From Natrinema salaciae (GTDB taxonomy: Archaea; Halobacteriota; Halobacteria; Halobacteriales; Natrialbaceae), in NCBI RefSeq assembly GCF_900110865.1, contig NZ_FOFD01000001.1, positions 372,001 through 436,000 of the forward strand: DNA of 64,000 nt. The letters are read 5' to 3'. Below the pieces are notes generated by a model. That model did no database searches and was not told where the DNA came from. It was given only the letters and a program-made list of their open reading frames with translations. Shown here piece by piece: positions 21,067 through 23,434 of this stretch. How positions within the stretch are numbered: position 1 is the first letter of the stretch; every line of letters starts with the position of its first letter. The translations under genes and the position numbers were made by a program.

Positions 21067-21495
21067 TTACTGGTCGCGATTCGCGCCGAGATCGGCCTGC
21101 GAGACGATCTTCGCACCGATCTCGGAGAGATCGACGGTCACGTCGTCGGTGACGGCCTTGCTGATCTCGTCGAGGTTCCCCGCGAGGACGGTCAGGACGT
21201 CGTCGGGGTTGGTGTAGACCAGCATGTTTCCGTCCTGGCCTTCCGCGACGAGTTGCGTGTCGTTCAGGACGACCTGGTTGTTCTGGATCGTCGCCGAGAC
21301 GACCGGGAGCGCGGCCGGCTTCCCCGGTTCGTCGTCCTTGACCTTGCGGATGTGGACGGCGTCGAGGTCGATGACCTCCTTGTGCGCTTTGATCTGCTCG
21401 GCGCAGTCGACCATGTCGTTGAGGAGTGCCGTCCGACGCTCGTTGCCGTGATCGCCGTCGAGACAGTGCTGACAGACGCGGAGTTCGAGTCGCAT
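21067..21495 (-). CDS. Conserved haloarchaeal protein, function unknown
   Basis: A 142-residue soluble protein with an N-terminal CQHCLDGDHGNE element that could bind a metal. It then has segments that look like a beta-rich domain (ATIQNNQVVLNDTQLVAEG and GNMLVYTNPDDVLTVLAGNL), with a helical acidic end. Start MRLELRVCQHC at 21495 is chosen over one eight residues upstream. It converges on the EF1-beta operon. Family not recognised. Confidence 0.6.
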   Translation of the reverse strand: MRLELRVCQHCLDGDHGNERRTALLNDMVDCAEQIKAHKEVIDLDAVHIRKVKDDEPGKPAALPVVSATIQNNQVVLNDTQLVAEGQDGNMLVYTNPDDVLTVLAGNLDEISKAVTDDVTVDLSEIGAKIVSQADLGANRDQ

Positions 21496-21602
21496 TGCGC
21501 GTCGATTAGTGACGGACACCGATGAGAATTCCGCTTCGATCGGTTCCGTTCCGCTCGCGCTCGCGCAGCGACCCGTCGGAGCACCGCCCGCCGGAGCGAG
21601 CG

Positions 21603-22295: not shown

Positions 22296-22409
22296 ACCCG
22301 ATCGTTCGCACGCATCACGAAAGGAGTATTCGACTGCAGTCGCCGCCCCTCCTGCCGAGCGTTGCCCACCGCACGTTGGAACGGCACAGAATATGTGGCT
22401 AACAAAGGA

Positions 22410-22417
22410 CTTTTAGT
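22410..22417 (+). promoter_or_regulatory. TATA-like box of the terpene-synthase-like gene
   Basis: CTTTTAGT, centred about 26 bases before the ATG at 22439, in an AT-rich leader. An out-of-frame ATG at 22432 opens a four-codon frame that overlaps the start. Confidence 0.45.
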
Positions 22418-22438
22418 TTCCAACTCTAATTATGAATA

Positions 22439-23434
22439 ATGAATAGTAATACGAAGTTTCGTTCGCTGGACGCGGGAACGGATCCGTTTTCGGACGCACA
22501 GGAACGAACGCTCTCGGAAACCGTTCGGCCGATCGCCGACGCCTACGACGAACTGATCGGGGACAGGGATCGATCGACCTGGCGGTGGTTAGACGCGGTC
22601 GAGCCGGAATTCAGACTGTCCTGTGTCGACGACGAGTACGGACGGCGCGTTCGCGACGCGAAGATACTTGCCACGATGTTCATCACCGTCGTCGACGACG
22701 TCGCGGAACGACACGGCGACCGGGCGACGCTCGAGGAGTTGCTGTTGGTTCCGTTCGACTCTCAGCCTGCCGACCCGACTCGAGCGGGCGTGGACGCCAC
22801 GTACGTTCGGTTCCAGCAGGAGCTGTGGGACGCACTGTTGACGTGTTACGCGGCGAGCCCGCGCGCGGACGAGTTCGCGAATCTGTTCCGATTCGACGTC
22901 AGGCAGGCGTTGCAGTCGGTCGACTACTCCGCACTGCTGGCCCAGTATCCCGGGCTCGCGAGCGAGCGCGAGCTCCGGACGTACGACGTCTACAACATGA
23001 TGCTCTTTCCGTTCGCCGACATCGACCTCGCGAACGCTCCCGCGTTCGATCGACGCGCGCTCGCGACGGTTCGAGACGTGGTCGCTCACAGCCAGCGAAT
23101 GGCACGTATCGGCAACTGGATCGCCACCTGGGAGCGGGAACTCGCCGAGGGCGATTACAGCTCCGGCGTCGTGATTCGTGCCCTCGAGACGGGCGTCGTC
23201 TCGCACGACGCGCTTCGGGCGATCCGGTCCGATCCGTCCGACGAGGCCGTCGATCCGGTAGTCGAACGGATCCGCGAGGCCGACATCGAAGCCGAGTTCG
23301 TCGACCAGTGGCGACGGGAGTACGACGCGGCGACCGCCTACTGCGACCGGATCGACGCCGTCGACGTTCGCGACTACCTCGAGGGGTTCGAGCCGATCTT
23401 CCGCTCGCAACTCGCGCGGCGACCGTCGCGGTAA
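22439..23434 (+). CDS. Class I terpene-synthase-like protein
   Basis: The all-helical protein of 331 residues matches the motif set of bacterial type I terpene synthases. The Asp-rich motif DDVAE is at 86-90. The NSE triad is N226-WIA-T230-WER-E234, followed by LAEGD. R180 lies exactly 46 residues before N226 and is followed by D183, the spacing of the diphosphate-sensor Arg and its linker Asp in such enzymes. Length is typical for a single alpha domain. It lacks the second DDxxD of prenyl diphosphate synthases and the squalene/phytoene synthase DxxxD pair. The likely reaction is ionisation and cyclisation of a prenyl diphosphate; the product is unknown. Its own promoter sits between it and a divergent MBL gene. 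Confidence 0.6.
   Translation: MNSNTKFRSLDAGTDPFSDAQERTLSETVRPIADAYDELIGDRDRSTWRWLDAVEPEFRLSCVDDEYGRRVRDAKILATMFITVVDDVAERHGDRATLEELLLVPFDSQPADPTRAGVDATYVRFQQELWDALLTCYAASPRADEFANLFRFDVRQALQSVDYSALLAQYPGLASERELRTYDVYNMMLFPFADIDLANAPAFDRRALATVRDVVAHSQRMARIGNWIATWERELAEGDYSSGVVIRALETGVVSHDALRAIRSDPSDEAVDPVVERIREADIEAEFVDQWRREYDAATAYCDRIDAVDVRDYLEGFEPIFRSQLARRPSR

Follow-up and report, generated by a model that had tools for sequence, protein, structure and literature searches.

A predicted class I terpene synthase in the haloarchaeon Natrinema salaciae belongs to an archaeal family with a candidate helix-H diphosphate sensor

The window, a 64,000-nucleotide stretch of the Natrinema salaciae genome, contains at 22439-23434 on the forward strand an open reading frame that starts with ATG, encodes 331 amino acids followed by a stop codon and has no internal stops. 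Upstream, a 143-bp intergenic region (22296-22438) separates it from a divergent gene encoding a metallo-beta-lactamase-fold protein, and its downstream neighbor is a convergent gene for a PLP enzyme of Cys/Met metabolism. The features of the locus are as follows.

22410..22419, forward strand: TATA-like element CTTTTAGTTT, a putative promoter element; similar AT-rich elements lie at about equal distance upstream of many orthologues (by eye)
22439..23434, forward strand: predicted class I terpene synthase coding sequence (open reading frame, PF19086 match over the cut-off, predicted model and fold matches)
22565..22573, forward strand: R43-D44-R45, candidate diphosphate-binding Arg; R43 in 148/150 homologues (two gaps), role putative
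22694..22708, forward strand: Asp-rich metal-binding motif D86-D-V-A-E90; D87 wherever a letter is present, D86 in 144/150, E or D at position 90 in 147/150
22976..22978, forward strand: R180, the sensor first proposed; Arg in 24/150 homologues, the others including E, W, T, L and K
22994..22996, forward strand: N186, candidate linker residue of the effector triad; Asn in 134/150 homologues, like the Sat1646 linker Asn182 by sequence
23105..23107, forward strand: R223, likely helix-H diphosphate sensor three residues before N226; Arg in 143/150, at the same offset as Sat1646 Arg220/Asn223
23114..23140, forward strand: metal-binding triad N226, T230 and E234 in NWIATWERE, with R233 before E234; N in 149, T or S in 150, E in 149 and R in 147 of 150

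The 150 homologues behind these counts are mutually related and some of their genomes were entered twice; the DD, N, T and E residues were also seen in a 78-sequence set. As the original prediction held, transcription of the gene probably starts at a dedicated promoter, a reading made plausible by the divergent gap and by the TATA-like element that recurs upstream of many orthologues. The gene is under purifying selection, with dN/dS values of 0.17-0.32 against four orthologues. Within the window no tailoring or prenyl synthase gene adjoins it, and a search of the host genome with PF19086 gave no second match. Nearby, at 21070-21519 on the reverse strand, the window encodes a 150-amino acid protein without a Pfam match, which is kept near the terpene synthase gene in many Natrinema-type loci.

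The original prediction described the product as a haloarchaeal class I terpene synthase and named a profile search and a structural comparison as its checks, and both came out in its favor. Against Pfam Terpene_syn_C_2 (PF19086) the protein scores 29.8 bits, over the curated cut-off of 23.7, and of 60 homologues in the alignment, 42 hit this model independently (E<0.01). The AlphaFold2 model, for which the input was the 60-sequence alignment, is confident (pLDDT 93.5, pTM 0.91) and has the alpha-helical fold of class I terpenoid synthases. Among the VIA-align matches listed, 50 of 50 are terpene synthases (Z 20.1-22.2), including taxadiene synthase (Z 22.2), bornyl diphosphate synthase (Z 21.7) and Sat1646 (Z 21.4, 2.8 A over 252 residues at 14% identity); helical bundles may score about Z 13 through their arrangement alone, so values of 20-22 over most of the chain are well above that effect. 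The best Foldseek matches are VenA and T-muurolol synthase. By sequence, a single-sequence search of the PDB gave nothing up to E 10 and a search of NCBIfam was empty as well, and the family profile reached only the Sat1646 and Stt4548 sequences in the PDB, both at sub-significant values (E 0.13 and 1.6). With templates of one or two sequences each, hhalign of the family gave a probability of 5% against Sat1646-like sequences and no useful match to one Streptomyces terpene synthase. Together with the conserved metal-binding motifs, the Pfam match and the fold model support the core of the prediction, and we regard the protein as very probably a soluble class I terpene synthase that depends on Mg2+.

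The motifs named in that prediction, D86-D87-V-A-E90, R180, D183, N226, T230 and E234, are all present, with R180 exactly 46 residues before N226. The triad follows the DDxx(D/E) motif at about 140 residues and carries a basic residue, R233, before its last acid. Chance agreement had been judged unlikely, and a sample of 620 other haloarchaeal proteins of 250-450 amino acids points the same way: a loose combination of DDxx(D/E) and (N/D)xxx(S/T)xxx(D/E) at similar spacing occurs in 13 of them (2%) and the strict two-motif form in one, and in none of the 620 are the motifs accompanied by Arg at N-46 or N-3. Judged by the fold match, the DDxxE and N/T/E residues would face one cavity, where three Mg2+ ions, coordinated by D86, D87 and E90 together with N226, T230 and E234, may surround the diphosphate group of a prenyl diphosphate, which R223, R233 and probably R43 would grip. 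In plant class I enzymes an Arg precedes the triad by three residues and there is an upstream RxR motif, of which we take R43-D44-R45 to be reminiscent.

The same wider fold is shared by isoprenyl diphosphate synthases and by condensing enzymes of the squalene/phytoene type, and isoprenyl and farnesyl diphosphate synthases do appear in the Foldseek list for the window model. That the protein is itself such an enzyme is nonetheless extremely improbable, as it has no PF00348 or squalene/phytoene synthase Pfam match up to E 10, the family conserves a single Asp-rich motif, DDxxE, next to its N/T/E triad and not two Asp-rich motifs, and the VIA-align matches listed are terpene synthases throughout.

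The residue that would sense the diphosphate appears to be another than the one first proposed. The original prediction placed a helix-G sensor and linker at R180 and D183, as in the canonical bacterial subtype with an Arg 46 residues before the triad Asn and an Asp three residues on; both residues are in the window protein, but Asp occupies position 183 in 77 of 150 homologues and the low conservation of Arg at position 180 speaks against R180 as the sensor. The C-terminal Arg-Tyr pair of canonical bacterial enzymes is also not a family feature: Arg is found at position 322 in 39/150 and Tyr at position 323 in 74/150, counts that depend on the alignment of the C terminus, and the window protein has R322-S323. 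On the other hand, two class I isopimaradiene synthases of actinomycetes, Sat1646 (PDB 7e4n/7e4o) and Stt4548 (PDB 7e4m), are known from crystal structures in which an Arg of helix H serves as the diphosphate sensor. In Sat1646 it is Arg220, three residues before Asn223, and the linker residue of Sat1646 is Asn182 (PMC9814573). Given the conservation and the Sat1646 offset, R180/D183 would be replaced by R223, the likely helix-H sensor, and, less surely, by N186. In six Methanosarcina-type homologues position 223 is Met and not Arg, so the sensor there must differ.

Setting the archaeal family beside characterized enzymes brings out a mixture of features. It shares with Sat1646 and Stt4548 the fold, the Asp-rich and N-S/T-E/D motifs and the helix-H Arg offset, but has its own motif forms, DDxxE and N-W-x-x-T-W-x-R-E. 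Plant class I terpene synthases (taxadiene, bornyl diphosphate and 5-epi-aristolochene synthases) are the best structural matches (Z 20-22) and have comparable Asp-rich and N/D-S/T-E motifs, whereas identity to them is 9-11% and they carry extra N-terminal domains. Canonical bacterial type I enzymes (selinadiene, epi-isozizaene, VenA and T-muurolol synthases) have the fold, the D-rich motif and the triad at similar spacing, but differ in the helix-G Arg at -46 and the C-terminal Arg-Tyr pair, neither of which is conserved in the archaeal family. Class ID terpene synthases such as PeuTPS also combine the class I fold with the lack of a canonical helix-G effector triad and an orphan gene outside a terpene cluster; in these enzymes D(N/D), ND and RXXKD motifs replace DDxxD and NSE (PMC11234867), whereas the archaeal family keeps DDxxE and N/T/E.

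The substrate would be a linear prenyl diphosphate, most likely GGPP because archaea make GGPP for their lipids, with FPP or GFPP also possible; three other genes of the host genome score over the PF00348 prenyl synthase cut-off and are a possible source of supply. A bicyclic diphosphate such as CPP, the substrate of Sat1646, would be the alternative for a class I diterpene synthase, and the shared position of the Arg sensor in helix H, as well as the fact that the Sat1646 and Stt4548 sequences are the only ones in the PDB that the family profile reaches, however weakly, speaks for it. However, no class II cyclase domain was found in the Natrinema salaciae genome in a search by the PF13243 model only, so that CPP would have no obvious source in the host, and we consider its use quite improbable. 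With a linear substrate, loss of diphosphate would give an allyl cation that may be cyclized or quenched inside the cavity of the helical bundle. The motifs define ionization and not cyclization, and the product is not predicted by the sequence, which gives some weight to a synthase that releases only a linear alcohol or alkene; most characterized enzymes of the terpene synthase fold do cyclize their substrates, and a purely linear product is therefore the less likely outcome, if one with an appreciable chance.

The original prediction presented the gene as an oddity among archaea, a view that does not hold for its distribution. Of 391 haloarchaeal genomes sampled, 119 (about 30%) carry a homologue, some of them two or three copies, and homologues are also present in several further taxonomic families of the phylum, methanogens included; among viral contigs no relatives were found. 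Two family copies stand in tandem in one Natrialba-like genome (L043:7825-10208). In Methanosarcina-type genomes (L207-L212) a divergent homologue lies downstream of a PAS kinase gene, and the one tested has no Pfam match of its own. The family has largely escaped annotation: the six haloarchaeal plasmid records that contain one of its genes all label it 'hypothetical protein'. To our knowledge, few terpenes beyond lipids and carotenoids have been described from archaea. In the literature searched, no characterized archaeal terpene synthase was found. A preprint claims terpenoid biosynthesis in archaea by its title, which stands in the reference list of PMC12797696; given that title, an archaeal terpenoid claim is not a first and the family of the window gene is a variant. 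The two references behind a MARTS-DB remark on viruses and archaea concern a giant-virus terpene synthase and an archaeal prenyltransferase.

Outside the window, relatives of the gene recurrently lie next to signal-transduction genes. A sensory or regulatory gene stands within two positions of the terpene synthase gene in 49 of 77 named family loci, by neighbor classes assigned by BLAST to Pfam-typed seeds on simple gene calls: a PAS-GAF-BAT-HTH_10 protein in 32 (usually with a small HalOD1 protein), a PAS/histidine-kinase protein in 13, a KaiC-family ATPase in three and a FIST protein in one. Across 132 loci, genes of these kinds make up 66 of the 261 that adjoin the terpene synthase gene vs 19 of 1178 at four or more positions, an odds ratio of about 20 that is descriptive, its P value being unusable because the loci are related and some genomes are present twice. 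Annotated records give examples: in Halobaculum halobium the neighbors are a PAS S-box protein and then a HalOD1 protein, and in Salinigranum marinum a PAS sensor histidine kinase. BAT domains are common: the genome that contains the window has 34 matches, and three others have 10 to 17 each. One adjacent pair in one genome would therefore mean little, and it is the recurrence that counts as evidence. In quick family trees, made without bootstrap, the BAT-linked genes fall together (two changes over 38 rows), nine changes are required for the kinase label, of which at least five are forced by well-supported branches, and the clade of the window gene has none of these neighbors except one HalOD1. 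BAT partners taken from loci with three different gene orders form one group, into which two non-partner proteins also fall; this agrees with a single ancient pair of BAT protein and terpene synthase that would have stayed adjacent through rearrangements. A comparable arrangement is known from the bop gene cluster of Halobacterium, in which Bat, a GAF/PAS/HTH regulator, is encoded near crtB1 (phytoene synthase) (PMC2253796); the likeness, a regulator of this kind near an isoprenoid synthase gene, applies to the BAT-linked relatives and not to the window gene, and phytoene synthase belongs to another enzyme family and Bat there serves bacteriorhodopsin production (PMC2253796). In Methanosarcina-type genomes a PAS-kinase gene lies directly upstream of the homologue, and the one that was Pfam-typed is PAS-PAS-HisKA_2.

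Other surroundings also occur. Halobellus homologues (L153, L161, L165, L166 and L169) have a gene resembling type II/IV secretion ATPases on one side and a group of ParA-like genes on the other, in place of sensory genes. On a metagenome contig labeled Lysobacteraceae (L168:195-2834), a methyltransferase gene, a family homologue and a 7TM-histidine-kinase-type gene stand in a row; several of the named loci are, like this one, metagenome bins, whose labels may be binning errors. A methyltransferase gene also adjoins the family homologue in L207 and L213.

In a few relatives the sensory partner is part of the same protein. In isolate SHRA6 (L138), a 505-amino acid protein matches a receiver domain (8.3e-17), HalX (8.1e-7) and, just under the cut-off, Terpene_syn_C_2 (2.3e-4); its model has an overall pLDDT of 84.6, weaker in the receiver part, and its portion from about residue 171 onward aligns with terpene synthases at Z up to 22. 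A Halodesulfurarchaeum metagenome-assembled genome (L118) encodes a 481-amino acid protein with a receiver domain (3.4e-18) and a terpene synthase part recognized by the family profile, and its gene adjoins a PAS kinase gene. The two fusions sit in different parts of the quick tree. Such receiver fusions are rare, with one full-length match in 391 haloarchaeal genomes. Further fusions were considered from long frames of GC-rich homologues and set aside, as only L118 and the gene seen in L138, L071 and L186 (one genome) match a receiver. In L129, a protein cut by the contig end, the segment before the terpene part possibly resembles the end of a receiver domain by eye; the receiver profile gave no match to it.

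Two neighborhoods may represent a regulated terpenoid cluster. In L138:9401-15001 the gene for the receiver-HalX-fused terpene synthase is followed by genes for an FAD-dependent oxidoreductase, an alpha/beta hydrolase and a receiver-PAS-histidine kinase, and in L114:9866-13923 FAD-dependent oxidoreductase and receiver-PAS-histidine kinase genes follow a terpene synthase gene. The oxidoreductase in both bears a weak, sub-cut-off resemblance to geranylgeranyl reductases, and this enzyme and the kinase, with the hydrolase in L138, would suit a terpenoid that is tailored and regulated.

The recurrent neighbors and the few fusion partners are signal-transduction proteins, and obvious biosynthetic neighbors are few, so the fold might in principle serve to bind a prenyl diphosphate as a signaling sensor or scaffold without terpene synthesis. 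We consider this very unlikely, since the metal-binding residues and the Arg sensor are near-invariant, receiver fusions included, and the protein of the window's clade stands without signaling neighbors. For the BAT-linked, kinase-linked or receiver-fused relatives, terpene synthesis is probably under signal control, and the receiver fusions favor sensors driving terpene synthesis over feedback on the sensors. This reading applies to these relatives; the clade of the window gene, one HalOD1 aside, lacks an adjacent sensory partner. More tentatively, and with some doubt on our part, terpene synthases across Halobacteriota may be outputs of signal transduction through PAS/GAF-BAT regulators, PAS histidine kinases and receiver domains, their terpenoid perhaps itself a signal within or between cells, with the window gene a stand-alone member that lost its sensor or never had one.

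If active, these proteins would make up a widespread and largely unannotated family of archaeal terpene synthases. Linkage to sensory proteins that is conserved, and in rare cases goes as far as fusion, would be unusual, in that terpene synthesis would be a direct output of signal transduction. If this is true, small-molecule signals in haloarchaea would become testable, as the species Natrinema gari has a homologue (L093) and genome editing is published for N. gari J7-2 (PMC10433800).
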